Shown: positions 1 to 19,643 of the stretch, piece by piece
How positions within the stretch are numbered: position 1 is the stretch's first letter
How the letters are laid out: each line of letters opens with the position of its first letter
Source: Planctomycetota bacterium
Lineage (GTDB): Bacteria; Planctomycetota; Planctomycetia; Planctomycetales; Planctomycetaceae
Assembly (NCBI GenBank): GCA_016872645.1
Contig: VGZH01000047.1
Coordinates: 1-44,520, forward strand
Reading direction: 5' to 3'
DNA length: 44,520 nt
The notes under the pieces: generated by a model
Told to the model about the DNA's origin: nothing
Database searches by the model: none
Seen by the model: only the letters and a program-made list of their open reading frames with translations
Program-made: the position numbers and the translations under genes

Positions 1-125
1 TCGTTCACAACCGGCCGAGCCTTTACGCCGCTGGCATGCACGACCAGCGACAACACAAATGGCAACAGCGCCGCCGTCCACAACGCTCGCGGCCACCAAC
101 GTCCCTGTTGATTCAACGCTTCCAT
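1..125 (-). CDS. N-terminal fragment of an exported or membrane protein (cut by window edge)
   Basis: A minus-strand reading frame begins with ATG at 125 and runs off the left edge, giving about 41 residues. A strong ribosome binding site (GGAGGT, about 7 nt before the ATG) supports the start. The peptide has a polar and aromatic N-terminus (MEALNQQGRWWPRALW) followed by a hydrophobic stretch (TAALLPFVLSLVVHASG, about residues 17-33), which is a signal peptide or first transmembrane helix. Too little is present to name a family. It is the next minus-strand start after the SGNH hydrolase, about 125 bp downstream of that gene's stop codon, so the two could be co-transcribed. Confidence 0.6.
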   Translation of the reverse strand, partial: MEALNQQGRWWPRALWTAALLPFVLSLVVHASGVKARPVVN

Positions 126-249
126 GCGTGCCACCTCCACTGTTTCACACCGGCAACCACCAGCTAAGTTCGCGGCGGCTTCTAGCACGGTTCGTCAATC
201 CAAGACAAGCTCGGTGTCGCTCATGCGACGGCTTTGAGTCTTGAGCAGA

Positions 250-1479
250 TCACTTCTGCTGAGCCAGCCATTTTGCGAGCACGTCTTCGGCCGAAGATTC
301 GTCTCCGGCAGCGCGATCGACAAGGCTTAAGTGCTGTGCTCGGACCAAAGGGCGGACCAATTCGTCGCGCGATGCGGGCGCACCGGCAGCCGCGACGGAC
401 GGATGCACGACGAAGCAGTCCCATTCTTGAAGCCCGAAGCTCAGTGACCAGTTCATCACCCACGAGTACGACTTCACGAACTGCTCGTCGCTGTCGGCCG
501 TCGCTGAACGCGGGACGGCGAGAACGACCAGGTCCGGCTTCATCGCTCGCACGGTTTGCTGAGCATCTTTTTCCAGTTGGGCGAGCGTCTTGCCCTCCGT
601 CGTCCATGCCGTGACTTCGACAACGGCGTTTGGATGCTGGCGCTTCAACGCCGGTCCGATGAGCTTGTCGAACGGCGGCATCGCGAGCACGCGGATCGGC
701 TTCGACTGCTTCACCAAGTCGAGCGTCTTGGCCAGGACCGGCGACGGAGGTTCAACGTTCTTCAACGAAACCGATTTGCCGGTGATCGTGCGGCAAAGCT
801 CCTCGGCCATCAGTTTGTGACCATCCATGTTCGGATGGATTTCGTCGCTCAGCGTCAGCCGCCAGGCCCAAGCGTCTTGCTTCCGCTGCGCGTCACCCGA
901 TCGGTACTGATCGCACACCGCCAGCTTCAAATCGCGAGCTGTCGAGCGGATGACCTCGCAGTACCGCTCCAGCTTCTCAGTCGGCCGACTCCCCGTGTTG
1001 ATGACCGCGTTCGGCGTGCAGAGCACGACATCCGCTTTGATCTCGCGACAGCGTGCGACAATTGTTTCGAGGTTCTTCCGAAATTGGTCTTCGGGGATGC
1101 GCACCATGTCGTTCAGCCCGAAGCTGACCATGACCAAGTCCGGCTTCTTGCTGAGCACGTCGTGGTCGAGTCGTTCCAAACCGTTCTGCGTCGTGTGCCC
1201 GCTGATCCCCGCGTTGATGACCTTTACGTTGGCCTTCGGGATCGCCAGCTTGATCGCAATCTCCAACATCTCCGGATACGCCCGCCGCCCGCCAGTGTGG
1301 TAGTAGACCCCGGTGACACTGTCCCCAAGACACACAATCGTCACCGGCTTCTCACCGAGCGTCAGCAATGGCTTCGGAAAGTCGTCCGCGATGGCGGGGC
1401 ACAACAGCACACAGGTCAAGAGAGCGAACTCTGACATCGCATTGAGCGACGTGCGGCGAGGAGTCGTCGGAGACGTCAT
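250..1479 (-). CDS. Exported SGNH/GDSL-family hydrolase (esterase-like) with a degenerate second domain
   Basis: This 409-aa protein has an N-terminal export signal (hydrophobic EFALLTCVLLCPAIA ending near residue 31). The SGNH blocks are in order: block I LGDSVTG with nucleophile Ser54, block II Gly in NAGISGHTT (about 91), block III GLND (Asn123), block V DEIHPN (Asp212, His215). This implies a secreted ester hydrolase acting on acylated carbohydrate or lipid; substrate is unknown. Residues from about 250 onward (IRVLAMPPF and PDLVVLAVP) resemble the alpha/beta core of a second SGNH domain lacking the catalytic Ser and Asp-His. I chose ATG 1479 because AGGA lies 7 nt upstream; the longer frame to 1557 reads through the neighbouring pseudogene. 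Alternative start: ATG 1437. Confidence 0.85.
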   Translation of the reverse strand: MTSPTTPRRTSLNAMSEFALLTCVLLCPAIADDFPKPLLTLGEKPVTIVCLGDSVTGVYYHTGGRRAYPEMLEIAIKLAIPKANVKVINAGISGHTTQNGLERLDHDVLSKKPDLVMVSFGLNDMVRIPEDQFRKNLETIVARCREIKADVVLCTPNAVINTGSRPTEKLERYCEVIRSTARDLKLAVCDQYRSGDAQRKQDAWAWRLTLSDEIHPNMDGHKLMAEELCRTITGKSVSLKNVEPPSPVLAKTLDLVKQSKPIRVLAMPPFDKLIGPALKRQHPNAVVEVTAWTTEGKTLAQLEKDAQQTVRAMKPDLVVLAVPRSATADSDEQFVKSYSWVMNWSLSFGLQEWDCFVVHPSVAAAGAPASRDELVRPLVRAQHLSLVDRAAGDESSAEDVLAKWLAQQK

Positions 1480-1505
1480 GATGGATTCCTGTGAAGAGTG
1501 TCCGT

Positions 1506-2049
1506 TCATTCGACGGCCAAGCCATCGATGGTGAATCGCAGAGTCGGAGCGCCCCACGAATCGAAAACCAACGCTAAAGCCCGAATCTTCAAGGGGATTT
1601 CGCCGTCCGTTCTCGCCCCAGCCGAATTCGGGATCGTGGAAGTTGTCGGAGAAGTTTCAGTTCTCGATTGTCCAACCGGAGCCGTCGATGATCTTGAGTC
1701 CCGTCTCCCAGCCTTTTGCATTCACGTTTTTCAACGTGACATTCGACACCCCTGCGGCGAGGACTGCGATTCCCTTGAGCTTATTTCCCGGCGGCTTGAG
1801 GTCGCCAATGAGCCACGCTCCTCCCCCGTCAATCGTGATGCTCGACGACCGGATGACCAGCGGCCCATAGACCTTGTCCGGATCAAGGCGAGTGTCCTGA
1901 GTGATTTCCATCGCAACGGCGTTGGCGGCCAGCACACTCAAGAGAAATGCCAGGAACCCACGAACGGTAATTCTTGTTGACTGGCCAGCTCCCTCTCCGG
2001 TCCGGTCGTGACTGCGCCCGAAGCGGGTCTCAACCTCGTCCGCCGCCAT
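1506..2049 (-). pseudogene. Decayed right-handed beta-helix (pectate-lyase-like) secreted protein
   Basis: The frame opening at 2049 encodes a signal-like segment (GFLAFLLSVLAANAVA), then beta-helix-like sequence (VYGPLVIRSSSITIDGGGA, VSNVTLKNVNAKGWETGLKI). It stops at a TGA at 1659-1657. In the same frame immediately after the stop, the sequence resumes family-like NFSDNFHDPEFGWGENGRR, so the stop is a nonsense lesion. About 20 codons later the homologous-looking sequence ends, and a different frame carries a protein-like tail (RALALVFDSWGAPTLRFTID) ending at 1506. This fits a nonsense mutation plus a deletion or frameshift near 1600. Intact relatives are several hundred residues long. The true start is unclear: the first ~26 residues from ATG 2049 look non-coding. 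Confidence 0.6.
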
Positions 2050-2108
2050 GCTGGTACCTCTGTGTTATCGGGGATTTTGCGGGGGGGAGAACTCGCAAGC
2101 AATCCGCC

Positions 2109-3575
2109 TCAAGCGGGATCGGCCTCAACCCCTTCGCGCGGTGAGGCGCGCAGTTCGAGGGCCTTGCGGCGGTCGGATTCGGCGAGCTTCTCTTTGCCGA
2201 GCTGCTGGTAGGCCTCGGAACGCATCGCGAAGGCGTCGGCGTCCGTCGGATTGAGCTCGATGGCAGCCGTGAAATCAGTGACGGCAGAGTTGTGATCTCC
2301 CAGCCGCCAATGCACTTCACCGCGTGCGCGCAGGCAGACGGGACACTTCGGATCAAGCCGCAACGCCACGTTGTAGTCAGCCAACGCTCGCGGGAGATCG
2401 CCGGTGTCAAGATACAACCCGGCGCGGCCGTTGTACGCCTCATGGTTGTCAGGATCAATCTCGAGCGCACGGTTGAAATCCAGCAGCGCGAGGTCGTGGC
2501 GATTCAGCGCTCGCCAGGAGTCGCCTCGATTGCGATAGGCAATCACCATGTTCGGTTCCAACCGAATCGCCTGCGAGTAGTCGTCGCACGCCTTTTCGAA
2601 CTCACCCTTTTCAAAGCGGATGTTGCCGCGATTGTGCCAGGCGCCGACCAATTCCTGGTCGAACTGCAACGCCCTGTCATAGTCGGCCAGAGCCTTGTCG
2701 GGCTGGCCGAGTTCATCGAACAAGTTACCTCGGCGGTAGAACAAATCCCCTTCGTCCGGGTTCATATCGATCGCGGTGTTGTAATCGGCGAGAGCTTTCT
2801 GATGCTCTCCCTTGCGCAGCCAGGCATCGCCGCGAGACGAAAACGCTCTACGATTGTCCGGTTCGCGTTCCAGCGACCCGTTGAAGTCGGCAATCGCCTC
2901 ATCCAATTTCCCAGAGTTCAAATATGCCAGCCCGCGATTGAAGAGAATCAACGGATCGTTCTCGGACAATTCGAGCGCGCGGTTGTAGTCTTTGAGAGCA
3001 TTCTCCAATTCGCCAAGTTCATCCCAGCAATTGCCACGATCCATCACGGCGGGAACGTATTCGGGGTCGAGATCAATTGCCCGCGTGAAATCTTCGATCG
3101 CCTTGCGGTAGTCCTGCTGAGCTTCCCAGACTAACCCGCGGTCGTAAAACAAATCGGGGTTGTCCGGGGAAAGGTCGAGCGCTTGTTCGTAGTCTTCGAG
3201 CGCCTCGGTCCACTTTTGCTGATCGGAGTACGCTCCGCCACGCAGCAGAAGTGCTTCGGAGTCAAATGGGTCGAGGTGCAACACTTCCGTCAGATCGTCA
3301 GCGGCTCGCTCTGGTTCACTGATGAGCGTGAAGACCCGCGCCCGATTGAAGTAATACGCCGACGCAGTGGGATTGAGGTCGATGGCGGTCGTGAAATCTT
3401 CGATCGCCCGTTCAGAAACTCCCAGCTTATCCCATACCAGCCCACGATCATTGAAATAGTCGGGATCATGCGGTTCGAGTTGGATCGCGAAATTGAACTC
3501 GCGCAAGGCGTCTCGGAATCGCCCTTTCTCGAACAGGCGATTCGCTCGATCGTAGTGCCGTTCCGCTTTGCTCAC
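2109..3575 (-). CDS. Tetratricopeptide-repeat protein, 14 tandem TPR units
   Basis: This 488-aa protein is almost wholly TPR. Fourteen consecutive ~34-residue units can be counted by their second-helix cores (DALREF, RAIEDF, RAADDL, EALEDY, KAIEDF, NALKDY, EAIADF, KALADY, KALADY, KACDDY, LALLDF, RALADY, SAVTDF, LAESDR). Such solenoids are protein-protein scaffolds; the partner is not evident. There is no signal peptide, so it is probably cytoplasmic. The frame extends to ATG 3692 and would add a Cys-rich segment (CRRDCACG, RCDTCWRR). I prefer GTG 3575 because GAGG lies about 6 nt upstream and the TPR homology starts just after it, but a zinc-ribbon N-terminus cannot be excluded. It is divergent from the downstream oxidoreductase. 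Confidence 0.88.
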   Translation of the reverse strand: MSKAERHYDRANRLFEKGRFRDALREFNFAIQLEPHDPDYFNDRGLVWDKLGVSERAIEDFTTAIDLNPTASAYYFNRARVFTLISEPERAADDLTEVLHLDPFDSEALLLRGGAYSDQQKWTEALEDYEQALDLSPDNPDLFYDRGLVWEAQQDYRKAIEDFTRAIDLDPEYVPAVMDRGNCWDELGELENALKDYNRALELSENDPLILFNRGLAYLNSGKLDEAIADFNGSLEREPDNRRAFSSRGDAWLRKGEHQKALADYNTAIDMNPDEGDLFYRRGNLFDELGQPDKALADYDRALQFDQELVGAWHNRGNIRFEKGEFEKACDDYSQAIRLEPNMVIAYRNRGDSWRALNRHDLALLDFNRALEIDPDNHEAYNGRAGLYLDTGDLPRALADYNVALRLDPKCPVCLRARGEVHWRLGDHNSAVTDFTAAIELNPTDADAFAMRSEAYQQLGKEKLAESDRRKALELRASPREGVEADPA

Positions 3576-3899
3576 GGTGTCCTCGCTGGGAGTCGTCACC
3601 GAGACATGTCTCGCTCGTCGAATCCTGACCCGTCGCCAGCAAGTATCGCATCGAACCGCCGTGCCGCAAGCACAATCTCTGCGACAGGGCATTTTCGCTA
3701 TGTCTCAGCCAAAGGACGAAAACTACCGGGTGGCGCGAGTCGACGCAACCAAGGGAGAAGGACACAGTGCCAACTTCCCAGTGCAAGTTACAAAGTGCAG
3801 AATGAGCCTGACGGCTCGCACCGTCCAACGTCATCTTTCACCTTGCGTTCTGTCCTTTTCACTTTGCAGTCATCCCGCCCTCCGAATGGCTGGCATTGA

Positions 3900-3928
3900 T
3901 TGCGAACCCGCTAAACCGTCGGTATCGT
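3900..3928 (+). promoter_or_regulatory. Possible sigma-70-type promoter for the Gfo/Idh/MocA gene
   Basis: A TTGCGA (-35 like, 3900-3905) and TATCGT (-10 like, 3923-3928) pair with a 17-nt spacer lies about 50 nt before the ATG at 3980. The match is moderate only. The rest of the 404-nt divergent gap (3576-3979) holds no convincing gene: it contains a short GAGCC/GGCTC hairpin near 3802 and T-rich runs before the oxidoreductase start. Confidence 0.3.
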
Positions 3929-3979
3929 CACCGTTCCGTATTCGACTTTTTCTTTCCACTTTGCCGAGGGCTTACGCCG

Positions 3980-5464
3980 ATGCGCCGCCGAAACTCCCGC
4001 CGTCAATTTATGAAAAACGTGACCGTCGCCGGTGTCGGCGCTTATGTGGGTCACGGCTTGGTGAATCCCGATCGAGTTCTCTCCGCCAACGAAGAACTCA
4101 ACGTCGCCTGCATCGGTGTGGGCGGCAAGGGAGGCAGCGATTCCAGCAACGCCTCGCAATTTGGCAATGTCGTCGCAATTTGCGATGTCGATCGGAACAC
4201 GCTCGAAAGCAAAGGGAAGTCCGACAAATTCACCAACGCCGAGAAATTTACTGACTATCGCGAACTGCTCGAGAAGCACGGCAGCAAGATCGATCTCTGC
4301 ACCGTCAGTACCCCGGATCACATGCACGCTCCGGCCACACTGGCGGCGATGCGGTTGGGGATTGGCTGCTACACGCAGAAGCCGCTGACTCGAACGATTT
4401 ATGAAGCTCGGCTGTTGGCGACCGTCGCGGCCGAGAAAAAGGTCTGCACGCAAATGGGAAATCAGGGGACTGCCCTGGACTCGTCGCGCGAAGCGATCGC
4501 CCAGATTAAGTCGGGCGTGCTCGGTACGCTGAAGGAAGTCTTCGCCTGGTCGAATCGCCCAGTCTGGGCGCAAGGCCCCGACCGCCGAATGACGATGCAA
4601 AAGTTTGCCGCTCAAGCGAAGATGGATGACCTTGAGAATGCCCCCAAGATCATTGACAAGAAGAAAGAAGAAATTGCCAAGGCTCTCGAGCGAGTCGATT
4701 GGAAAAACTGGATCGGTGTCGCGCCGAATCGGGAGTTCTGGCCAGGCATTTATCACACATTCCAATGGCGTGGCTGGTGGGACTTCGGCAGCGGAGCCTT
4801 GGGCGACATGGCCTGCCATCAATTGACGGTTCCGTTCGCGTCGTGCGGACTGCGTGATCCGATCTCGGTCCAAGCCAAGTCTACCGGTCACGACTTCGAC
4901 AGTTTCCCCGCCAGCGCGGTCATCAAGTTCGAGTTTCCCGAAACGTCCGAACGCCCCGCGATTCCCTTCTGGTGGTATGACCGCAAAGGAAACAAGCCGC
5001 CGATGGAAGTCTTCGAGAAGCACGGCATCACGAAGGTCTCCGACAGCGGCGTGATGATCGTCGGTGAGAAGGGAACCTTCTACAGTTCGGATGACTACTG
5101 CGGTGTTTACGAATTGAAAGGTGTCGGGAAGGTCAAAACCGACTACGAGAAGGCCGAGAACAAAGGGAACAACGACCTCAACAACATGTACGAGTTGTTC
5201 CGCGCGAAGCGAGCCAACGATCCGAAGATCGCCAAGTCCAACTTCGTGGACCGGGCCGGCCCGCTCACCGAGACGATCCTGCTCGGTAACCTTGCCGTCT
5301 GGGCCGCCGCCACCGGAGGAGAGAAAGGCGCAATGGGTGAATGGGGCGAGAAGGTGGAGTGGGACGCCAAGAACCTCAAGGTCACCAACCTCGCGTCGCT
5401 CAAGACACCGCACGTCGCCGATCTGATCAAGCCAAAGTACCCGGAAGGCTACCGATTAGATTAG
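3980..5464 (+). CDS. Tat-exported Gfo/Idh/MocA-family oxidoreductase
   Basis: This 494-aa NAD(P)-dependent oxidoreductase probably acts on a sugar or polyol in the periplasm. The N-terminus is a classic twin-arginine leader (SRRQFMKNVTVAGVGAYVG, residues 6-24). It is followed by a Rossmann nucleotide-binding motif (VACIGVGGKG, about 42-51), an Asp ending strand 2 (AICDVD), the STPDHMHA strand, and the catalytic lysine loop, here TQKPL (Lys134) rather than the canonical EKP. The C-terminal Gfo/Idh alpha-beta sheet domain follows (GWWDFGSGALGDMACHQ). ATG 3980 places the Tat motif correctly and has GAGG about 10 nt upstream; the frame to 3896 is intergenic. Exported oxidoreductases of this kind are abundant in planctomycetes. 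The substrate cannot be read from sequence. Confidence 0.92.
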   Translation: MRRRNSRRQFMKNVTVAGVGAYVGHGLVNPDRVLSANEELNVACIGVGGKGGSDSSNASQFGNVVAICDVDRNTLESKGKSDKFTNAEKFTDYRELLEKHGSKIDLCTVSTPDHMHAPATLAAMRLGIGCYTQKPLTRTIYEARLLATVAAEKKVCTQMGNQGTALDSSREAIAQIKSGVLGTLKEVFAWSNRPVWAQGPDRRMTMQKFAAQAKMDDLENAPKIIDKKKEEIAKALERVDWKNWIGVAPNREFWPGIYHTFQWRGWWDFGSGALGDMACHQLTVPFASCGLRDPISVQAKSTGHDFDSFPASAVIKFEFPETSERPAIPFWWYDRKGNKPPMEVFEKHGITKVSDSGVMIVGEKGTFYSSDDYCGVYELKGVGKVKTDYEKAENKGNNDLNNMYELFRAKRANDPKIAKSNFVDRAGPLTETILLGNLAVWAAATGGEKGAMGEWGEKVEWDAKNLKVTNLASLKTPHVADLIKPKYPEGYRLD

Positions 5465-5490
5465 TTGTCGTTCCGAATTGAGTTTCAATG

Positions 5491-5551
5491 TAGCCACGTT
5501 CGCCAGAGCGTGGGCGTTGGCAGATCGCCCACGTTCTGGCGAACGTGGCTA
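5491..5551. repeat. Near-perfect 26-bp inverted repeat (REP-like or bidirectional terminator-like)
   Basis: The left arm 5491-5516 and right arm 5526-5551 are reverse complements over 26 bases with a single mismatch (GAGCG against GAACG) and a 9-nt loop. The core is AGCCACGTTCGCCAG. It sits 27 nt after the oxidoreductase stop and before the lipoprotein gene. No T-run follows, so it is more likely a dispersed palindromic element or mRNA-stabilising hairpin than a standard terminator. Confidence 0.8.
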
Positions 5552-5582
5552 TTTCTCTGTTGTTTCCAGTGTACTGATTGAG

Positions 5583-6911
5583 ATGAAAGTCATGATGCGT
5601 CACTCGATTGCTTTGTTGATCGTTGGATTATTGGGACTGACGGGATGCGGTCAGCCTGACACTCCTGGTGGTGACAGGGGTGAGTCATCTGCCAGTGAGT
5701 CGAAGAACAAAACGCCGCCAGTGGCCACAAAACAGGGGACGGCCAAATTCGACGACGTCAAAGCCGCAAGGACTCGGATCGACGCATTCGGCTCGCGATC
5801 CAGATACTCGCCGAAAGAGGGCCAACTTCTGACGGAAATCGTCATTCAAGACGGATCGAATCTGACGGCAGACGACTTGGCACTGTTCGGCAAGCTCAGC
5901 GATCTCGAAAAGCTGCAGATCTTCAACTGCCGGACGCTGGATCACGAGATGGTCGTGAAACTCAACGGCTTGGGAGGACTGACCAGTCTCGCGATCACTA
6001 ATTCGGTAATCAACGACTCGACGGTGGGGATGATCGTCCAATCGTTTCCCAATCTCGTCGAACTTGATCTGTCGTCAAACACAAACATGACCAACGGGGT
6101 GGTCAAGATCCTCAGCGAACTCGGCAAGCTCCAGCGGCTGACGTTGGTGCAAAACCAAGTCAATGACATCGGTGCTCGGCGGCTGGAAAAATTGAAGGAA
6201 CTCCGCACGCTCGATCTGCGAGGCAACATGGAGGCGGGGGACATGGCTCTGGAGGTCGTCGCGGATCTGCCGAAGTTGACCGCGTTCAAACACCGCAGTA
6301 CGGCGGTCAACGATGTGGGCCTGGAATACCTCAGCAAGAATCAAACGCTCGATTCGCTGTTGATCCAGGATTTCCAGATCACCGATCAGTCGGGACCGCA
6401 TCTCGCCAAGCTCGGTAAACTCACCCAACTCGAAATCTTCCGCTGCCAGGGCTTCGGGACCGAAGGAGTCCTTGCTCTCAAGGGGATGGGCTTGACCCGG
6501 CTGACACTCCGCGACCTTCCCAACATCGACGATCGAGCGTTGGAGGTCTTCGACGACCTTCCCAAGCTGAAGCGTCTCTACCTGCACGAGATCACGTCGG
6601 TCGGTGATTCCGGGCTGAAACATCTCGCGGCTCTCAAGTTGCTGGAGCTGCTCGATATTTGGACGGTCCCGCAAATGACCGATGCCACGATCGACGTGAT
6701 CGCAACGCTTCCCAATCTGAAGGAACTGACGATCCGAACGACCGGCGTCACCGACGCGGCCATCGATAAGTTGCTCGGAATGCAAAGCCTGCAATCGCTG
6801 GCATTCAAAGAAAATGGCTCAGTCACTGCCGAAGGGCTGAAGAAACTGACGAGTAAGAAATGGTCGAAGTTGGATGTCGGAGCGTCCGACATGAGTGAGT
6901 CGGCCCAATAG
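5583..6911 (+). CDS. Leucine-rich-repeat lipoprotein
   Basis: This 442-aa protein has a lipoprotein signal peptide: Met-Lys-rich start, hydrophobic ALLIVGLLGLTGC, with the lipobox Cys near residue 22. A low-complexity Ser/Lys linker follows. The rest is a solenoid of about 12 leucine-rich repeats of the RNI/cysteine-containing type (LEKLQIFNCRTL, LTSLAITNSVI, LVELDLSSNTNM, LQRLTLVQNQV, LRTLDLRGNM, LKRLYLHEITSV, LKELTIRTTGV), each with a TD or ND turn. Such repeats bind proteins or polysaccharides; here the protein is probably envelope-anchored. The chosen start (ATG 5583) directly precedes the signal peptide; ATGs at 5592 and 5595 are alternatives. The function is unknown and the neighbours give no clear link. 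Confidence 0.85.
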   Translation: MKVMMRHSIALLIVGLLGLTGCGQPDTPGGDRGESSASESKNKTPPVATKQGTAKFDDVKAARTRIDAFGSRSRYSPKEGQLLTEIVIQDGSNLTADDLALFGKLSDLEKLQIFNCRTLDHEMVVKLNGLGGLTSLAITNSVINDSTVGMIVQSFPNLVELDLSSNTNMTNGVVKILSELGKLQRLTLVQNQVNDIGARRLEKLKELRTLDLRGNMEAGDMALEVVADLPKLTAFKHRSTAVNDVGLEYLSKNQTLDSLLIQDFQITDQSGPHLAKLGKLTQLEIFRCQGFGTEGVLALKGMGLTRLTLRDLPNIDDRALEVFDDLPKLKRLYLHEITSVGDSGLKHLAALKLLELLDIWTVPQMTDATIDVIATLPNLKELTIRTTGVTDAAIDKLLGMQSLQSLAFKENGSVTAEGLKKLTSKKWSKLDVGASDMSESAQ

Positions 6912-6929
6912 TTCCTCCAAGTCGTTTGG

Positions 6930-6967
6930 AACACTCGCCCTCGCTGACGCTTCGGGTTAGTGTGTTC
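6930..6967. repeat. Short palindromic REP-like element before panB
   Basis: The segment has AACACT/AGTGTGTT outer arms around the core CCCTCGCTGACGCTTCGGG. The same core (CCCTCGC..ACGCTTCGGG) recurs at 35060-35078, which indicates a dispersed element rather than a gene-specific site. It fills most of the 61-nt gap between the lipoprotein and panB. Confidence 0.5.
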
Positions 6968-6972
6968 TTGCC

Positions 6973-7773
6973 ATGACCAAACCAGCTACCGCGATGACCG
7001 TCCCCAACTTCGTGAAGGCCAAGTCCGAAGGCCGCAAGCTCACGATGTTGACCGCCTACGACTTCACTTGGGCCGGACTACTCGATGCCGCGGGTATAGA
7101 CTCGATTTTGGTCGGCGATAGCCTGGGCAATGTCATCCAAGGTCACTCGACGACACTGCCAGTCACACTGGATGAAATCATCTACCACGCTAAGTGTGTG
7201 ATGCGGGCGGTTCGCCAAGCCCTCGTTATCGTCGATATGCCGTTCCTGTCGTTTCAAGTCAGTCCGTCACAGGCGGTCGAGAATGCCGGCCGCATTCTGA
7301 AGGAGACAGGGGCTGCCGCCGTGAAGCTCGAAGGGGGAGTAAATCAAGCACAGACGATTGCGGCGTTGACGGCAGCAGACATTCCGACGATGGCCCATGT
7401 TGGTTTGCGGCCTCAATCCATTCACAGATACGGTGGAATGAAAATCCAACGGGACAAGCAGGGGCTGCTGGCCGATGCTCGAGCTGCTCAAGAAGCAGGG
7501 GCCTTTAGCGTTTTGCTGGAACTGGTTCCGCGAGATTTCGCCGCACAAATCACTCGCGAACTGACCGTACCGACGATCGGCATCGGAGCCGGCCCCGAAT
7601 GCGACGGCCAAGTGCTGGTTAGCTACGACATGCTCGGCCTGACCGACGGCTTCCATCCGAAGTTCGTCAAGCACTTCGCCGATCTGCGAGCCGAGGCGAC
7701 TCGTGCGACTCAGCAGTACATCGCCGAAGTCCGCTCCGGGGCGTTCCCCGACAACGCTCACAGCCATCGCTGA
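6973..7773 (+). CDS. panB: 3-methyl-2-oxobutanoate hydroxymethyltransferase (ketopantoate hydroxymethyltransferase)
   Basis: PanB catalyses the first committed step of pantothenate and CoA synthesis, transferring a hydroxymethyl group from 5,10-methylene-tetrahydrofolate to alpha-ketoisovalerate in the cytoplasm. The 266-aa length is normal. Metal and substrate residues are visible: Asp49 in LVGDSLGN, Asp88 in VDMPFLSF, Glu120 in KLEGG, His142 in MAHVGLRPQ, and the catalytic base Glu183 in LLELVP. The C-terminal IGIGAGPECDGQVLV motif is intact. There is no clear Shine-Dalgarno at ATG 6973; ATG 6994 is an alternative start. panC and panD are not in the window, so the gene stands alone. Confidence 0.97.
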   Translation: MTKPATAMTVPNFVKAKSEGRKLTMLTAYDFTWAGLLDAAGIDSILVGDSLGNVIQGHSTTLPVTLDEIIYHAKCVMRAVRQALVIVDMPFLSFQVSPSQAVENAGRILKETGAAAVKLEGGVNQAQTIAALTAADIPTMAHVGLRPQSIHRYGGMKIQRDKQGLLADARAAQEAGAFSVLLELVPRDFAAQITRELTVPTIGIGAGPECDGQVLVSYDMLGLTDGFHPKFVKHFADLRAEATRATQQYIAEVRSGAFPDNAHSHR

Positions 7774-8021
7774 ACCTGGCGGATGGGCAGCCTTATCCGT
7801 ACGGCATTTCGGATCGCCGGCTGGTTTCAGAGGGGGCAATCCGCCGACGGCGGACCAACTTCTGTTTTGCATCACGCAGCAGTCGGCCGAGCAAAATGCC
7901 GCAGGTGTTGCAAAGTGCTCGGATCGGCGAAAGGGAATTCTCGCCCACCCAGAAACTTGGAAAACCGAAATTGCTTGGCAGAGCAAGGACTTACAGCTCT
8001 TTTCCAAAACACAATCAAGTT
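7774..8021. other. Non-coding gap upstream of a candidate sigma-54 promoter
   Basis: No convincing gene is seen here. It holds a small GC palindrome (TCCGCCGACGGCGGA, near 7840-7854) and a TTGCT/AGCAA inverted pair (7971-7986) about 40 nt upstream of the promoter-like site at 8022. It is AT-richer near its 3' end (TTTTCCAAAACACAATC). Short ORFs crossing the region lack ribosome binding sites and run through a strong terminator. Confidence 0.5.
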
Positions 8022-8037
8022 TGGCACGAGCACTGCA
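8022..8037 (+). promoter_or_regulatory. Candidate sigma-54 (RpoN) promoter
   Basis: The sequence TGGCACGAGCACTGCA matches the -24/-12 consensus TGGCAC-N5-TTGC at nearly all positions (CTGC instead of TTGC). The invariant GG (8023-8024) and GC (8035-8036) have exactly the required spacing. The predicted transcription start is near 8048. An enhancer site for an RpoN activator would be expected upstream in 7850-7990; only a short TTGCT/AGCAA inverted pair is seen there. Confidence 0.6.
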
Positions 8038-8047
8038 ATTGGATTTG

Positions 8048-8139
8048 CTCGCCGTGGTGGCAGGCGTTGGCCCGCAACTGCAAACTTCGGCAAACCTGAA
8101 AACGCTGTGAGTGACTCGTCGTTGCTCACAGCGTTTTTT
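8048..8139 (+). ncRNA. Candidate ~90-nt small RNA (or leader RNA) between panB and the MFS gene
   Basis: A transcript starting about 12 nt after the sigma-54-like site would end at the intrinsic terminator at 8099-8139, giving roughly 92 nt. It contains no plausible ORF with a ribosome binding site. Two readings are possible: a free-standing small RNA, or a 5' leader of the MFS gene (start at 8202) whose terminator acts as an attenuator. The promoter and terminator are seen directly; expression is inferred. Confidence 0.45.
8099..8139 (+). terminator. Strong Rho-independent terminator
   Basis: A 13-bp perfect stem (AAAACGCTGTGAG at 8099-8111 with CTCACAGCGTTTT at 8125-8137) encloses a 13-nt loop and is followed by a T-rich run (8134-8145, TTTTTTC then TTTTT). 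It lies 63 nt before the MFS start codon and more than 320 nt after the panB stop, so it probably ends a transcript initiated inside the gap. Confidence 0.88.
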
Positions 8140-8201
8140 CTTTTTAGGGTGTCTTCCTCGCGGCCCCGCCTCCCGCCTGTTTCGGCCGCCAAGGAGCGGC
8201 T

Positions 8202-10085
8202 ATGTCTGAAGCAGCGTCCCGTCCAAGTGGCGTCCGGCACTTAATCGTCTTGCTGCTGACGCTGATGTCGGTGCTGCTGTACCTCGACCGCTTCTGCGTT
8301 TCGTTCGCCGGCGACTACATCAAGGAAGACCTCGGCCTATCGCAGACGCAGATGAGCCTGCTGCTCGGCCCGTTCTTTTTTCTGTTTTACGCCTTAGCCC
8401 AAGTCCCGTCGGGCTGGCTGAGCGACCGCTTCGGCGCGCGGATCATGCTGTCGATCTACGTCGTGGCGTGGTCGCTGTTCACGGCTCAGATGGGCTTGGT
8501 CGCCGGCTTCGCGATGCTGCTCGTCGCGCGGCTGATGTGCGGGATCACCCAAGCCGGAGCGTACCCGACGGCCGGTGGAGTCATCAGCCGCTGGGTGCCG
8601 CTCTCCAAACGAGCAACGGCCAGCGCCTGGGTCGGACTTGGTGGCCGAATCGGTGGCGCGATGGCACCGATCCTGACCGCGTTCTTGATGGTGGTCTTCG
8701 TGCCGGTCGAATCGGAAGTCGGGATTGCCGAGCGCGACATGATGGATGCCGGAAGGTTTTGTGCTCGCATTGCACCAATCTCCGACAAAGTGAAGCAAAC
8801 CATCGAATCGGACGGCAACACCGAAGAGTTACGGAGCAAAGCTCGAAAGAGTCTGACGACTCCCTCGTTTCTCGCCGACCGAATGGCGGCCAGTTTTGGC
8901 GCAGCCAAGCGGAGTTCCGATTGGATAGCGATCGAAGCGGCTGCAGAAGAGCACTGGTTATGGCAAGTCAAGAAATCGCTGAATCCACAACCCGACTCAA
9001 CACCGGCTCCGAAGACACCACCAGCGACGGAAGCGGAACTTGTCGATGGTCTGAACCATCTGCTCGACAACAACATTCGGGGACCAATTTATGACCCTGC
9101 TGAAATTCCAAAGATCAACTTGCCGCGCGAGGCGGTCAAATATGCCGAACGGCTGAAGTCGGGCGACTCGCTTTCGCACTCGGAACTGCGGCGGTTCAAT
9201 CGGTTACTGATCGAGGCGGCATTTCCCGGTGAGATTCGGAAGCTCTACGGCCGAGGTTGGCGACCGGTGATGATCGTTTACGGGCTGTCCGGTGTCCTCG
9301 TCGCGTTGGGAATCTGGCTGATGTTCCGCGAGCGGCCGGAGTTGCACTCGCGAGTCAACGACGCCGAACGTGCGCTGATTGAGACCGGGCGGCTCGCCAC
9401 CGCCGCCGATCCTGCGAGCAAGGCCGGACGACTGCCGATCAAGCCGTTTTTTACGAGCTTTAGCTTGTGGTGCAATTGCGCGAATCAGATTGGAACGAAC
9501 ATCGGCTGGGTCTTCTTGGTGACATGGCTGTCACGCTATTTCATCGAGATGCACAACGTTCCGATTCTCGAACGGGGCATGCTGGTGATGCTGCCCAACC
9601 TGATCGGCATGTGCGGCGGCTTTCTCGGAGGTCGCTGGGTTGATTGGCTATTGCCGCGCATCGGACTGAAATGGAGCCGCAGTTTGCCGCCGATCATCAC
9701 GCGATTCATCGCAGCGGGTGGCTATGGGATGTGTCTGTTCTTTGCGGCTCAGCCAGCCGGGTCGGCGCTCAATTCACCGTATGCGTTCACGGCAGCGTTT
9801 TGCTTAATCTACTTTTCGGTGGATCTCGGCCAGTCAGCGTTCTGGGCGTACGCTCAGGATGCCGGCGGCAAATACGTCGGCTCGGTGCTCGGCTGGGGCA
9901 ACATGTGGGGAAATCTCGGAGCCGCGTTTGGCCCGCTGCTCTACAACTATCTGCTCGGCGAAACTCCCGGATTGGACGAGTGGAACAGTCTCTTCTGGCT
10001 CGGCCTGATCGCGTTCGTGTTCGCGGGAATCGCGACGTTCGGTCTGGATGCATCGAAGCCGGTGTTTGCAGACGAAACGAACTAA
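8202..10085 (+). CDS. MFS transporter (ACS/hexuronate-like) with a ~180-residue extracytoplasmic insertion
   Basis: This 627-aa major facilitator is probably an organic-anion or sugar-acid:proton symporter of the inner membrane. Five helices are evident before residue 168 (LIVLLLTLMSVLLY, LLLGPFFFLFYALAQ, IMLSIYVVAW, FAMLLVARLMCG, GGAMAPILTAFLMVVFV), with the MFS signature GWLSDRFGAR at 71-80. A mostly hydrophilic segment of about 180 residues (170-352) then precedes helix 6 (PVMIVYGLSGVLVALGIWLMF) and the remaining helices. By MFS topology the TM5-TM6 loop faces the periplasm and is normally about 10-15 residues. The ribosome binding site AAGGAG lies 6 nt before ATG 8202. The stop overlaps the convergent gene by the tetranucleotide CTAA. 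Confidence 0.9.
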   Translation: MSEAASRPSGVRHLIVLLLTLMSVLLYLDRFCVSFAGDYIKEDLGLSQTQMSLLLGPFFFLFYALAQVPSGWLSDRFGARIMLSIYVVAWSLFTAQMGLVAGFAMLLVARLMCGITQAGAYPTAGGVISRWVPLSKRATASAWVGLGGRIGGAMAPILTAFLMVVFVPVESEVGIAERDMMDAGRFCARIAPISDKVKQTIESDGNTEELRSKARKSLTTPSFLADRMAASFGAAKRSSDWIAIEAAAEEHWLWQVKKSLNPQPDSTPAPKTPPATEAELVDGLNHLLDNNIRGPIYDPAEIPKINLPREAVKYAERLKSGDSLSHSELRRFNRLLIEAAFPGEIRKLYGRGWRPVMIVYGLSGVLVALGIWLMFRERPELHSRVNDAERALIETGRLATAADPASKAGRLPIKPFFTSFSLWCNCANQIGTNIGWVFLVTWLSRYFIEMHNVPILERGMLVMLPNLIGMCGGFLGGRWVDWLLPRIGLKWSRSLPPIITRFIAAGGYGMCLFFAAQPAGSALNSPYAFTAAFCLIYFSVDLGQSAFWAYAQDAGGKYVGSVLGWGNMWGNLGAAFGPLLYNYLLGETPGLDEWNSLFWLGLIAFVFAGIATFGLDASKPVFADETN

Positions 10086-10714
10086 CCCGGATCGCCTGCG
10101 AGCCTCTGTTGCCAGAAGGCATAGTCCTCCGGCGTGTCGAGATCGGCAAGCACGGAATCATGATCGGTCGGCCATTCGGAGACGAGATCCGGCGACGAAC
10201 GGAGCAGCGTGTTAACACCGACGTCCTCAGGCAGCTGTTCGATCCGTTCCGCGAGCGACCACCTCATCAGCGTCGGATGTCCGCGGCGCTGGTCGAGTAT
10301 TGGTAGCAGTACATGACAATCGCCTTGTGACCAGCGCGTCACCAGGCCGTCGAGAACTTCTGGTTCGATGAGCGGGTGATCGGCGGGAATCAACAGCCAG
10401 CCCTCGTCGTCAGTCGGAGCGAATTGTTGGCGGATGGCTCGCAGACCGAACTCGATGCTGTCTCTCATTTCGGGTGGCGCGTGATCGGGAACGACCGCGA
10501 GGGCGGACGTGCGTTGCACAACATCTTGCAGCAGGTGATCGTCGGGGCGGATGACGATCACAATCGCCGTGATATCCGGGCGAGTCAGCGTGTGGATGAG
10601 GTACTCGATGACCGTCGTCCCTTGCCACGGGAGCAGCAGTTTCGATGCCCCCATCCGTCGGCTGCGGCCGGCGGCGGGGATCAGGGCGAACAATCGGCGG
10701 GGAGCATCGGCCAT
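10082..10714 (-). CDS. MobA-like nucleotidyltransferase (molybdenum-cofactor cytidylyl/guanylyltransferase-like)
   Basis: This 210-aa GT-A fold nucleotidyltransferase has the N-terminal nucleotide-binding motif LIPAAGRSRRMGASKLLLPW (residues 11-30). It also has the metal-binding loop LLIPADHPL and a C-terminal LADLDTPEDY, which is characteristic of the MocA/MobA (CTP or GTP:molybdopterin) and related GlmU-like subfamily. It probably transfers a nucleotide to a cofactor or sugar phosphate in the cytoplasm; the exact substrate cannot be fixed, and no molybdenum cofactor genes lie nearby. I start it at ATG 10714, where family homology begins; ATG 10744 and 10810 would overlap the divergent gene's upstream region. 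It is convergent with, and overlaps by 4 nt, the MFS gene. Confidence 0.8.
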   Translation of the reverse strand: MADAPRRLFALIPAAGRSRRMGASKLLLPWQGTTVIEYLIHTLTRPDITAIVIVIRPDDHLLQDVVQRTSALAVVPDHAPPEMRDSIEFGLRAIRQQFAPTDDEGWLLIPADHPLIEPEVLDGLVTRWSQGDCHVLLPILDQRRGHPTLMRWSLAERIEQLPEDVGVNTLLRSSPDLVSEWPTDHDSVLADLDTPEDYAFWQQRLAGDPG

Positions 10715-10780
10715 GTGGCAATCCAGTCGGGGAATCGGAATCATCTGTGACGATTGTGTCTGCTCGAAGGAAGACTGGCG

Positions 10781-11305
10781 ATGCTGAACGATACTTCTCG
10801 CGAACCTCATCCTGCCGCGCTCGACTCAAAGGACTTGCTGCGCGTCTGTTCGCAACGGCGGACTCGGCGTTCGGGTCCGGGAGGTCAGCATCGGAACAAA
10901 GTCGAGACCGCCGTGGTGCTGGTGCATGATCCAACCGGGATCCAGGCCGAGGCCAATGAACGTCGCAGCCAGTCGGAAAACCGGGAGATCGCGTTATTTC
11001 GGTTGCGAGTCCGATTGGCGGTCGAATTCCGCACGGTTCGCTCGTTCGATGCGATTCCGTCGGAGCTGTGGCGGTCTCGATGCCGAGGAGGTCGAATTTC
11101 GGTGAATCCGACCCATCTCGACTTTCCCGCGCTGTTGGCCGAGGCGCTGGATGTGCTCACGCTGTGCGATTTCAATCAGGCGTCGGCGGCAATTTCGTTG
11201 GGCTGTTCTGGCTCGCAACTGGTCAAGTTGCTGAAGGAGGAGCGGTCGGCCTTCGAGCTTCTGAACCGCGAGCGGGCTACTCGCGGAATGCTGCGTCTGA
11301 AGTGA
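10781..11305 (+). CDS. Release-factor-like GGQ protein (RF-1 domain, no codon-recognition domain)
   Basis: This 174-aa protein has one RF-1 catalytic domain: RRSGPGGQHRNKVETAV with the GGQ at 34-36, which in release factors triggers hydrolysis of peptidyl-tRNA in the ribosome. It lacks the stop-codon-recognition domain of RF1/RF2. It also lacks the Arg/Lys-rich C-terminal tail of ArfB. Instead, residues about 105-174 form an extra domain (HLDFPALLAEALDVL, then QASAAISLGCSGSQLVKLLK), which resembles a helix-turn-helix. It is therefore probably a ribosome-rescue type peptidyl-tRNA hydrolase. ATG 10781 has AAGGA upstream (GAAGGAAGACTGGCG). It is divergent from the MobA-like gene. Confidence 0.85.
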   Translation: MLNDTSREPHPAALDSKDLLRVCSQRRTRRSGPGGQHRNKVETAVVLVHDPTGIQAEANERRSQSENREIALFRLRVRLAVEFRTVRSFDAIPSELWRSRCRGGRISVNPTHLDFPALLAEALDVLTLCDFNQASAAISLGCSGSQLVKLLKEERSAFELLNRERATRGMLRLK

Positions 11306-11453
11306 GCTTCCAAAATTGGACTCGTCAATTGGATTTCGCCGGGTACACTCACGGCCACTTGTTGGAATGGCAGGATTGGTCGAATGCTGCCAAAGCGGTC
11401 ATGAGACGACTCCGTATCAATGGAATGTCTGTTCGCAACGGAAGGATGTCGCC

Positions 11454-11816
11454 ATGCGAAAAGCCGGTCGCTTTGAGGAAACTCGTCGCCGAGCCTTGAG
11501 TCCGGTTCGTGTCGACGTGGGTGACGCAGTTGAAGAGCAACAATCGGAAACCGTGCTCTTGCCGGCCGATGACTCGCTGCTGGTGCACCCGCATCACCTG
11601 GAGCAAGAGGTTCGCCACCGATTGATGCAGGAGTCGAACCTCAACTTCACCTCGCTGGTCGTTCGCCGCGTCCGCGATGGGCTTTGCCTGGAAGGGGTGC
11701 TTGAAGCGAACGATTCGGACGAAGTGAGCAAACTCGTCAGCCAAGTCTGCGGCGCGATTCCGGTGCTCAATCATCTCGTCGTTCATTCCCCCCGCGAATT
11801 GCCTCGCAAAGGGTAA
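11454..11816 (+). CDS. BON-domain protein
   Basis: This 120-aa protein has a basic N-terminus (MRKAGRFEETRRRAL) and no signal peptide. Residues about 50-112 match a BON domain: helix HRLMQESNLNF, then LVVRRVRDGLCLEGVLEAND, then the second helix and the final strand AIPVLNHLVVH. BON domains bind phospholipid membranes or other macromolecules; the lack of a leader suggests a cytoplasmic role here. ATG 11454 has AAGGA about 8 nt upstream. The gene lies 148 nt after the GGQ protein on the same strand and ends 15 nt before the convergent DAHP synthase stop. Confidence 0.72.
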   Translation: MRKAGRFEETRRRALSPVRVDVGDAVEEQQSETVLLPADDSLLVHPHHLEQEVRHRLMQESNLNFTSLVVRRVRDGLCLEGVLEANDSDEVSKLVSQVCGAIPVLNHLVVHSPRELPRKG

Positions 11817-11831
11817 CGTCGAAAGATCACA

Positions 11832-12848
11832 TCAGCCGATCGTCTTGCCGACGGCGGCGGCGACGAGTCGGCAGCGAGCCATTATGTCGGCGAACGCAAC
11901 GGGGGTAAGTGACTGTGCTCCGTCGCTCATCGCCTTCTTCGGATCTGGATGAACCTCGACGATTAGCCCGTCGCTGCCACACGCAACTGCGGCGAGACAC
12001 ATCGACGGGACGAGTGACGCGATACCGGTGCCGTGGCTCGGATCGACGACGACCGGCAGGTGCGTTTTCTCTTGCAGGTAGGCAACGGTCGCCAGCGGCA
12101 GAGTGAATCGCGTGTGTGTTTCGAACGTGCGGATGCCTCGCTCGCAGAGCGTCACCTGCTGGTTGCCTTGGTCGAGGATGTATTCCGCCGCGAGCAGAAA
12201 CTCTTCAATCGTCGCCGACGGACCGCGTTTGAGCAGCACTGGCAGCCGCGTCTCACCGACCGCCTGCAGCAAGTGGTAGTTCTGCATGTTGCGAGCGCCG
12301 ATTTGCAGGACGTCGGTGTACTTCGCAACGAGTTCGACATGCTGCGGGGCCATGACCTCGGTGACGATTGCCAGTCCAGTCTTCTCACGGGCGAGGGCCA
12401 GCAATTTCAAACCCTCTTCCTTCATCCCTTGGAAGGCATACGGACTGGTACGGGGCTTAAAGGCTCCACCGCGCAGGCCGGTCGCGCCGGCGGCTTTGAC
12501 TTGTTCGGCGGCCAGCAGGATTTGCTCTTCGCTTTCGACCGAGCAGGGGCCGGCGATGACTCCGATGTGGCCGCCACCGATGACGAGGCCACGAGTTTTG
12601 ATCGCGGTCGGTTCTGGCTTCGTCTCGCGGCTGGCGACTTTGTAAGGCGCGAGAATCGGGACAACTTGCTCAACGTCGTCGTAGGATTCGAGCAACTCTT
12701 TCGCGCCGTTCCGCTTGTCTCCGACGGCGGCGATCACGGTTCGCTCGGTACCGACGATGACGTGCGCCTTCAACCCCATCTCTTCGACCGTACGAGCCAT
12801 CTGCTGGATGGCATCGGGAGTCGCGGTTCGTTTCATCACAACGATCAT
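11832..12848 (-). CDS. aroF: 3-deoxy-7-phosphoheptulonate (DAHP) synthase, type I-beta with N-terminal regulatory domain
   Basis: The enzyme condenses phosphoenolpyruvate and erythrose 4-phosphate, the entry step of the shikimate pathway. The 338-aa architecture matches the Thermotoga-like form. Residues 1-70 form a ferredoxin/ACT-like domain ([20 protein letters not shown]) used for feedback control by Tyr or Phe. The barrel shows GPCSVES (about 100), [33 protein letters not shown], the metal-binding [10 protein letters not shown] and [20 protein letters not shown] site lies 8 nt before ATG 12848. It shares strand with the M20 gene 77 nt upstream, but no functional link is obvious. The symbol aroF is used for this subtype by convention. 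Confidence 0.95.
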
Positions 12849-12925
12849 GATTCATGCTCCCAGGGAGTTCTTGTAGGCTGAGCACTCTGGCCCGACCATC
12901 GACGGGGCCGAGTGCCCAAACTAAG

Positions 12926-14101
12926 TCAAGAAAGCAGCCGTTCGGTGAGTCGTACCCAGTAGCTAGCTCCGATCGGCAGCAGGTCGTCGTTGAAATCATA
13001 GCGAGGATTGTGCAGTACGCGGCCATTGTCCGAGGGACCGTTACCAGCCCAAATGTACGAACCGGGACGTTCGAGCAACAGGAAGGAAAAATCCTCGCCC
13101 CCCATGCAGGGAGCGACATTCGTGTCGACGTGCTGCGAACCGACGACGGCGACGGCGGCCTCGGCGGCCCATTGCGTTTCTTCGGGCGTGTTGACCGTTG
13201 CTGGATAGCGGCGGTCGTAGTGCAGTTCGGCGGAGGCACCCAGCGAGGTCGCGATGCCGCTGACGATCCGTCTCATGTGAGCTTCAGCCATGTCTTGAAC
13301 CTCTTTGCGAAACGTTCGTACGGTGCCGCGGAGCATCACTTGCGAGGGGATCACGTTCCATGTGTCGCCGGCGTGAATTTGCGTGACGCTGATGACCAGT
13401 TGATCGAGCGGATTCATGTTGCGGCTGGCAATCGTCTGCAACGCGGTGACGATCTGCGAGGCCGCGACGATCGGATCGACTCCCAGATGCGGCATCGCGG
13501 CGTGAGTGCCGTGACCGCGGACGATGATCTCGAACACGTCGAACGCGGCCATGATCGGTCCTGAGCAAACACCGAAGTGTCCAACGGGCATCCCCGGCCA
13601 GTTGTGCATTCCGAAGACCGCGTCGCAGGGGAATTGGTTGAAGAGTCCCTCTTCGACCATCACGCGGCCACCCCCTTCGTTTTCCTCGGCGGGCTGAAAG
13701 ATGACGTTGACCGTGCCGGCGAAATTACGTGACTCGGCGAGATAACGAGCGGCTCCGAGCAGCATCGTTGTGTGTCCATCGTGCCCGCAGGCGTGCATCT
13801 TGCCGGGATTCTGCGAGCGATGCGGGACGTCGTTGAGTTCTTCGATGTCGAGCGCGTCGATGTCGGCTCGCAAACCGATGCAGCGCAGCCGTGCTTCGCC
13901 AGCTTGCTTGCCGCGAATCACGCCGACGACGCCGGTCTTGGCAAGTCCGCGATGCGTTTCGATGCCCCACGCTTGCAGCTTCGAGGCAATGAGTTCTGAA
14001 GCGAACGTTTCCTCGAACGCGGTCTGTGGGTGAGCGTGCAGTTCACGCCGCACTGCAGTCAGTTCGGGATGCCATTCGGTCAGTCGCGAGAGAACGTTCA
14101 T
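12926..14101 (-). CDS. M20-family metallo-amidohydrolase (hippurate hydrolase/aminoacylase-like)
   Basis: This 391-aa enzyme belongs to the M20D/AMA/HipO group, which cleaves N-acyl or indole-conjugated amino acids. The metal site is intact: HACGHDGHT at 103-111 (Cys105, His107), the general base pair in FQPAEENEGG, the dimerisation-domain histidine in GHGTHAAMPH, and the final metal His in RVLHNPRYDF. There is no signal peptide, so it is cytoplasmic. The start at ATG 14101 is secured by AAGGAG 6 nt upstream; the reading frame extends 49 codons further without coding character. It could be read together with the DAHP synthase gene downstream (77-nt gap). The natural substrate cannot be told from sequence. 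Confidence 0.92.
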   Translation of the reverse strand: MNVLSRLTEWHPELTAVRRELHAHPQTAFEETFASELIASKLQAWGIETHRGLAKTGVVGVIRGKQAGEARLRCIGLRADIDALDIEELNDVPHRSQNPGKMHACGHDGHTTMLLGAARYLAESRNFAGTVNVIFQPAEENEGGGRVMVEEGLFNQFPCDAVFGMHNWPGMPVGHFGVCSGPIMAAFDVFEIIVRGHGTHAAMPHLGVDPIVAASQIVTALQTIASRNMNPLDQLVISVTQIHAGDTWNVIPSQVMLRGTVRTFRKEVQDMAEAHMRRIVSGIATSLGASAELHYDRRYPATVNTPEETQWAAEAAVAVVGSQHVDTNVAPCMGGEDFSFLLLERPGSYIWAGNGPSDNGRVLHNPRYDFNDDLLPIGASYWVRLTERLLS

Positions 14102-14177
14102 GTCGGCTCCTTGTGGTGTCTTTCGAGACGTCTTGGGATGTTTGAGAGAGCGAGAGTGCGAGGCTCTCAAACTCAAA

Positions 14178-14942
14178 TTATTTGTCGGCGGTCGGCTGTC
14201 CTTCGACAATGACCTCCGGGGATAATATCCAAATCTCGCCGAAGGCATCCGCCTGGTCGGCTCGGAACCCCTGATGTCGCAAGAGTTCGAGAATCGCCAG
14301 AAAGATCCCGATGATTCGGCTGCGCTGCGAGGCGTTGTCGAACAGTGTCGTGAAGCGGACTCGACCAGCTTCGCGGACCTTCGCGCCGATCTGTTCGATG
14401 TAAACGGAGATCGGCGTGTCGTCGTAGCGGATCTTCGATTCCTCTTGGATCACCCGGCGTTCGAGCACTCGGCTGAGCGCGCTGACCAAGTCCCAGAGTT
14501 CGACTCCTTTGATGCGATCCGCACTCGGATCGCGGACGGCATCTGGGCGTTCGTCACTCAGTCGCGGGTACCGTTCCAGCGATTCAGCCGCTCGTTCTTC
14601 GAGAGCTTTCGCCGCCTCTTTGAACCGCTTGTATTCGAGCAACTGCTGAATCAGCCCGCTGCGCGGATCATCCACCGGCTCGACCGGGACTTCTTCTTCC
14701 TCTTCGGTGTTCGGCAACGCCTGTCGGCTTTTGATTTCCAACAGCGTGCTGGCCATCACGACGAATTCGCCGGCGAGGTCGAGGTCCAAAAACTGAATCG
14801 CCGCCAGGTATCTCTGGAACTGAGCGGTGATCTCGGCGATCGGCAGGTCGAGCAAATCCAATTCATTCCGCCGGACCAAGTACAGCAACAGGTCCAGCGG
14901 CCCAGAAAAACGCGGCAAGTTGACTCGGTAATCATCCGTCAT
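14178..14942 (-). CDS. scpA: Segregation and condensation protein A
   Basis: ScpA is the kleisin of the bacterial SMC-ScpAB condensin and helps segregate chromosomes in the cytoplasm. The 254-aa length and motifs fit: the N-terminal [32 protein letters not shown] (positions about 7-38), the helix [23 protein letters not shown], an acidic linker ([11 protein letters not shown]), and the C-terminal winged-helix region ([18 protein letters not shown]). ATG 14942 is chosen because family homology starts there; upstream sequence is non-coding. scpB is not adjacent in this window. It is divergent from the glucose dehydrogenase gene across a 131-nt gap. Confidence 0.95.
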
Positions 14943-15073
14943 GTCGCCACTGTAGCAGCGAGACTGAGTTCGTCGAATCTCACCCGGCCACTCCGTACAA
15001 TCTTGGTCCTTTCCGGGCTGTGAGTGCCGGCCCATTTGCCATTTCTGTTGTCAACTTCCGAGAGTCTGCCGTC

Positions 15074-16177: not shown

Positions 16178-16264
16178 CCCGCGAACCTGCCTTTCCTGAA
16201 ATCGGCCGAGTCAGTCAAATCCGTTCGCCTGCGGGACCATCCGACCTCTGGCAGAAGCGATGAT

Positions 16265-17269: not shown

Positions 17270-17292
17270 ACCTTGGGAAATGACGCTGTCTG

Positions 17293-19506: not shown

Positions 19507-19643
19507 TCCGATCGTCGATCGCGAGATTCGCAATCACGCAAACGCCGACGATTCTGAATTCCGGCTGAGACTCGCCAGATGTCGGCCGAGTCGTTCAAAA
19601 TACCTGTCCGCGATTAAGAACCCTCCACGCTTGGGAGTCCGCC

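Follow-up and report, generated by a model that had tools for sequence, protein, structure and literature searches.

In a planctomycete contig, a sigma-54-type promoter lies a short distance ahead of an intrinsic terminator in the gap between a panB-like gene and a transporter gene. This raises the question of whether the interval is a gene for a small RNA (sRNA) in its own right or a conditional leader of the transporter, both of which had been proposed in the initial annotation. We analyzed the window, by which we mean the whole stretch of 44,520 nucleotides, and compared it with genomes of the same genus, family, class, and phylum. Judging from sequence comparison, the window probably carries one copy of a gene for a small regulatory RNA that had not been listed before. 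More specifically, we favor, with a probability of roughly 0.7, an independent gene that would represent a new family of trans-encoded, sigma-54-dependent sRNAs of about 90 nt acting via their loop. The features of the locus are as follows.

6973 to 7773, + strand: panB-like gene, which we take to encode 3-methyl-2-oxobutanoate hydroxymethyltransferase; neighbor, outside the element
7866 to 7918, + strand: putative upstream activator-site cluster, about -182 to -130 relative to the predicted start, with the sites TTTTGCATCAC (7866-7876), GCAAAATGC (7891-7899), and GTGTTGCAAAGTGC (7905-7918)
8022 to 8037, + strand: sigma-54-type -24/-12 promoter TGGCACGAGCACTGCA, whose GG occupies 8023-8024 and whose GC occupies 8035-8036
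8048 to 8145, + strand: predicted sRNA of about 90 to 98 nt, extending from the inferred start as far as the U tract
8051 to 8091, + strand: hairpin 1, with the loop UUGGCC (8067-8072) within GCGUUGGCCCGC; highly conserved in the genus, stem covarying across genera
8098 to 8145, + strand: intrinsic terminator, stem-loop (8098-8138) plus T tract, recognized by stem length, fold, and conservation
8202 to 10085, + strand: presumed MFS-type transporter gene, a naming that we share with the initial annotation; neighbor, outside the element

Promoter, terminator, and predicted transcript

The promoter TGGCACGAGCACTGCA differs from the consensus TGGCACGNNNNTTGCW at a single position, and the initial annotation was right in that its GG and GC have the spacing of RpoN promoters. 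As sole proof, this match was rejected, since the window contains 2 such matches (up to two mismatches allowed), which is below the mean of 8.46 expected from shuffled sequences. Terminator-like sites were not in excess either, with 19 of them in positions 1 to 20000 of the window compared to 19.4 in shuffles. The terminator of this locus has a stem of 18 pairs (A-T and G-T pairs counted) followed by TCTTTTT, while the runner-up stem in the same 20,000 positions has 9 pairs. The terminator described in the initial annotation is real, although its coordinates, given as 8099-8139, were shifted by one base. As had also been noted, it lies ahead of the MFS gene and ends about 60 nt before the ATG at 8202. 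What places the pair of promoter and terminator above chance is its conservation, both in the genus and in the family.

From the position of the promoter, we infer a start at 8048. The 98 nt from there fold with -44.9 kcal/mol (z = -5.05), and none of 200 shuffles was equally good. This RNA matched our covariance model R1 with 98.9 bits, a score that is not independent because the window copy was one of the 13 sequences used to build the model.

Conservation in the genus and distribution in the family

The DNA of the window occurs once in its own genome. Strong matches were found in 8 of 11 genomes of the same genus, the three without being drafts that are 87 to 92% complete. In these eight relatives, identity to the window is 79% at the 3' end of panB and 26% over the next 97 bases. 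It is 86% over the upstream-site cluster (7871-7922), compared with 26% and 60% in its flanks, the latter being the 93 bases between these sites and the promoter. The promoter (8016-8038) reaches 93%, the segment from -9 to +3 69%, hairpin 1 98%, the linker 75%, the terminator 98%, and the T tract 82%, followed by 67% between the T tract and the start of the MFS gene and 63% over the initial 99 bases of that gene. A lack of conservation of promoter and stem in close relatives had been named as one result that would speak against an RNA gene; both are instead conserved, there and in many other genera, which supports the stand-alone sRNA of the initial annotation.

A covariance search among planctomycete genomes, which had been suggested as a check, extended the element across most of the family. 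Model R1 matched 108 of 170 family genomes and 47 of 58 genera (E up to 0.1), and R2, built from 85 matches, identified 130 of the 170 genomes and 53 of the 58 genera (E up to 0.01); since both models were calibrated only briefly, their E-values are rough. R2 had no match at this threshold in 40 of the 170 genomes, including 3 of the 11 same-genus relatives and also some complete genomes (e.g., G018, G052, and G015). When 19 weak in-family matches were read, GG and GC were properly spaced in 18 and GGCC was present in the loop region of all 19, with a hairpin and a T run after it by eye. The DNA search that had identified the genus relatives also gave 21 weaker matches in other genomes. Of these, 4 (L010, L011, L012, and L023) proved to be real on inspection, each having GGCAC, then a properly spaced GC, the core GCGTTGGCCCGC about 30 nt further on, and a terminator of different sequence.

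Outside the family, the matches are marginal. R1 matched 30 of 392 genomes of the phylum, 10 of them outside the family and all of these with E of at least 0.006, and the promoter-core layout was absent from the six out-of-family matches that were read. R2 matched 151 of 397 genomes of the class, 50 of them outside the family (E from 1.1e-5 to 0.05). Seven of these 50, including the best one, came from a single family, f110 (G785, G674, G790, G712, G619, G670, and G740). The best match (L449) harbors the promoter and GGTTGGCCCGC without a visible terminator, and none was seen by eye in the second out-of-family match read for this feature (L458). Distant members may exist outside the family. 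In a named collection, promoter plus core was found in 71 stretches, and no viral contig matched. A terminator followed in 0 of 13 matches from records not assigned to planctomycetes, versus 59 of 62 in the rest, two of the three misses being contig ends.

For a closer view of the layout, 104 places were extracted, of which 12 that lacked the core or the promoter-core layout were dropped (6 outside the family and 6 weak ones inside); together with the window, this gave 93 loci. The set represents part of the R1 matches, e.g., 3 main copies from genus g33 (16 genomes) and 3 of 9 from the genus of the window. GG and GC at promoter spacing were present in 90 of the 93 loci, which had been chosen via a model that includes the promoter. 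A terminator followed the hairpin in 90 loci when mismatches were allowed and in 68 when a perfect stem was demanded, compared to 7 of 255 random 80-mers with mismatches allowed; the three misses are two contig ends and L159.

The link between promoter and RNA can also be approached from the core. The exact 16-mer GCGTTGGCCCGCACTT was found in 85 places in 77 of the 170 family genomes, while its backward control was found once. A strict -24/-12 element lies just 5' of this core in 64 of 75 distinct copies, versus 0.95% of random places. This count covers genome loci only, with 8 of the 85 core places left out, and it omits records retrieved by a pattern that contained the promoter (68 of 79 with those). 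Of the 11 exact cores lacking a strict promoter, two (L148 and L173) retain both GG and GC but deviate at a single base, two from one genus (L444 and L077) are without GG and GC, and seven lie in other contexts, among them two inside long open frames (L461 and L462). In L444 and L171, from two genomes of genus g29, core and terminator are retained and the -24/-12 element is unrecognizable; a switch of promoter type is possible in this genus. GT stands in place of the promoter GC in two genomes of a further genus (L161 and L172). Four weak R1 matches (L139, L170, L179, and L186) have a good -24/-12 promoter without the RNA core; they were picked up because R1 contains the promoter.

Others of these seven exact cores lie in RNAs of different build. 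In L460 and L463 (near position 2000; G094 and G118) and in L464 and L465 (near position 2000; G119), it sits in hairpins without a sigma-54 promoter, and in the latter two, a separate hairpin precedes the core hairpin and a T run directly follows it. Tandem copies of the RNA were seen in one genus (G107 to G110). Three loci of genus g51 (L133, L137, and L138) carry at least two tandem copies, every one of which has a promoter and a terminator of its own, and a more divergent copy with the loop GCGTCGGCCCAC just 5' of the tandem.

Throughout the family, the loop GGCCCGC is nearly invariant and sits on a covarying stem. In an alignment of 89 members, the loop and its closing pairs hardly change and the rest of the stem varies. 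The upper stem of seven pairs has 93.4% of its cells paired, compared to at most 45.4% in slid versions, and 42 cells with a double change, compared to 16.6 in shuffles and 1 to 30 in slid versions. Pairs showing a double change were not in excess over shuffles in this unfitted alignment (4 versus 3.4), because three of the seven pairs barely vary. The outer stem covaries as well on a model-fitted alignment, which itself leans towards structure. An alternative register of the stem with a larger loop is about equally good, and GGCCC is exposed in both.

Upstream sites and candidate activators

The upstream cluster consists of TTGCATTTTGCAA-like sites that are common to family members. Gibbs sampling on 92 upstream regions, one locus being short of upstream sequence, returned the motif TGttgCATTTTGCaaC, which was recovered across genera and is very similar to the LuxO site TTGCAWWWTGCAA. 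At 7 bits, 60 of the 92 regions have two or more sites, 27 have one, and 5 have none; in the window, the middle site alone exceeds this value. When half of the genera were used for training, 10 bits were reached in both repeats by 20 of the 23 genera held out. At the same threshold, 35 of 56 and 31 of 40 held-out loci scored, the corresponding counts among control windows being 97 of 2055 and 67 of 1556. Searched genome-wide in 12 genomes, the upstream-site pattern gave 33 matches (7 for the backward pattern), 3 of which are the RNA itself, and a second search in 12 genomes gave 28 (11 backward), including 2 at the RNA itself. A wider regulon under these sites may exist.

These sites would be bound by an NtrC-type enhancer-binding protein. 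PF00158 matches number 10 to 21 per genome in ten genomes, and we compared 60 such proteins from five genomes (all of those in G000, G018, G121, and G125 and 14 of 16 in G043). A group of response regulators (L355 group) seemed at first to be confined to three RNA-bearing genomes but was then found in 149 of the 170 family genomes, including genomes without an RNA match; its G043 member is one of the two G043 proteins outside the set of 60. As GAFTGA is also missing from the three members read, this group was rejected as the activator. The protein encoded at L355:1269-2609 and its orthologues have a receiver-AAA+-HTH architecture and share 63 to 100% identity among the matches listed; this NtrC-like protein may no longer work with sigma-54. 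Within the scanned RNA loci (up to about 4 kb on each side), no protein combined GAFTGA-like and Walker-A patterns.

Mode of action and comparison with known systems

No neighbor of the RNA is constant. Genes of the panB cluster lie within four ORFs of it in 37 of the 93 loci, upstream and on the opposite strand in 34 of these. Under the leader/attenuator reading, the terminator would be conditional and would govern read-through into the MFS gene; the roughly 60 nt between the two in the window fit such an arrangement, as does the MFS cluster found downstream in 16 of the 93 loci. Neighboring ORFs were called by a simple longest-frame rule, and the first one downstream of at least 200 amino acids lies on the same strand in 73 loci, but on the other strand in 14, with none in 6, and these ORFs belong to 42 clusters. 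Moreover, the minimum-energy and centroid structures of the window RNA are identical and contain no competing anti-terminator. Because the downstream genes differ so much, we regard an attenuator of the transporter, the other proposal of the initial annotation, as highly improbable. We attach even less weight to a transcript that encodes a short peptide. An ORF starting with ATG, GTG, or TTG does run across the core in 38 of the 93 loci in one frame, but in 22 it does so in a second frame and in 1 in the third, so that no frame is preserved across the family; in addition, the distance between promoter and core varies by single bases, every base of the core is conserved, and the stem covaries. 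Varied neighbors and tandem copies point instead to a gene acting in trans.

A stronger competitor, which we still judge unlikely, is that the same sigma-54-dependent RNA serves as a protein decoy, its GGCCCGC hairpin titrating an RNA-binding protein off mRNAs as CsrB titrates CsrA. The near invariance of the loop and closing pairs on a variable stem speaks for this reading, and the same 16-nt core recurs in the four promoterless hairpins of other architecture, for which a protein-binding element fits at least as well; the T run after the core hairpin in L464 and L465 is also in keeping with it. CsrA recognizes GGA, which is missing from the loop, and CsrA is therefore an unlikely partner; furthermore, titrating RNAs usually carry many sites, whereas a single loop is present per RNA here. 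Of three RNAs of odd architecture that were folded, two were not better than shuffles (z of -0.73 and -0.85), which weakens the case, and L464 gave -2.06. In favor of a decoy, Hfq (PF17209, E up to 1e-5) was found in 0 of the 170 family genomes, with 5 of 14 control genomes positive. Also in its favor, one study reports sigma-54-type promoters for csrA of a planctomycete and an enrichment of the csrA COG among the genes of the sigma-54 regulon predicted for Planctomycetia (PMC12316311). The invariance of the loop fits both; we place a loop-seeded antisense RNA working without Hfq first and a protein decoy second.

For the loop-seeded antisense RNA, we propose the following course of events. 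An NtrC-type enhancer-binding protein on the TTGCATTTTGCAA-like sites at 7866-7918 would activate sigma-54 RNA polymerase, which would start at about 8048, and the transcript would end at the intrinsic terminator (8098-8145). The RNA would consist of a hairpin presenting the GGCCCGC loop and a terminator hairpin, and the exposed loop would, independently of Hfq, pair in trans with a single mRNA or a small number of them. In this way, the signal sensed by the activator could be turned into posttranscriptional control, as in the LuxO-Qrr circuits of Vibrio. On a more speculative note, and with considerable doubt, Planctomycetaceae might possess a LuxO-like circuit without Hfq, in which a phosphorelay-controlled activator on TTGCATTTTGCAA sites drives a loop-seeded sRNA. 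The GGCCCGC hairpin could then be a module reused in other RNAs, marking an RNA-recognition system specific to this lineage, which would have either a partner protein of its own or a target in common. Conserved across most of the family with a complete layout of promoter, upstream sites, and terminator, in genomes without a recognizable Hfq, the element offers a concrete handle on the use of sRNAs in Hfq-less bacteria.

At the gathering cutoff of Rfam 15, the search returned one tRNA only in the window (44431-44519, at its end; 58.1 bits) and one tRNA only in 20 fetched loci. The Rfam model of Qrr was unmatched in the window and in these 20 loci at this threshold, and a search of positions 7700-8300 with E up to 5 gave no Qrr match and no family at the gathering cutoff. 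The genes for the sRNAs CrcZ, NrsZ, and GlmY/GlmZ each have a sigma-54 promoter of their own, which is served by an enhancer-binding activator. The window RNA differs from them in having no Rfam match, in its GGCCCGC loop, and in that its clear members are confined to one planctomycete family. The Rhodopirellula-1 motif, which a table lists for Proteobacteria and Planctomycetes without an Rfam number (PMC2864571), is likewise a structured-RNA candidate from planctomycetes, and the likeness is one of description. In the part of the literature on sRNA, RpoN, or Hfq in planctomycetes that was covered, no account of a sigma-54-dependent sRNA was found.

The closest parallel is Qrr of the Vibrionaceae, whose genes are activated by LuxO and sigma-54. 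Qrr genes have an intrinsic terminator and are present in several copies in some genomes, and Qrr action depends on Hfq. As described in one study, Qrr is an intergenic sRNA with a -24/-12 promoter (TGGCA-N7-TGC), and qrr1 of Vibrio fischeri has two upstream LuxO sites, TTGCAWWWTGCAA, between -60 and -175 (PMC10162802). The window RNA shares the intergenic position, the -24/-12 promoter, the terminator, and the occurrence in multiple copies, and its upstream sites resemble the LuxO sites in sequence. In contrast to Qrr, it belongs to another phylum, it matches no Rfam family, Hfq was not found in its host family, and no gene for a GAFTGA-type activator was recognized in the scanned loci. Its promoter spacing and upstream enhancer sites are those of a sigma-54-dependent sRNA gene, a term that denotes a kind of gene and not a family. 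The window RNA thus has a Qrr-type layout, yet it is outside the Qrr family on the tests made, and it bears on the question of an independent origin of the LuxO-Qrr layout in so distant a phylum.
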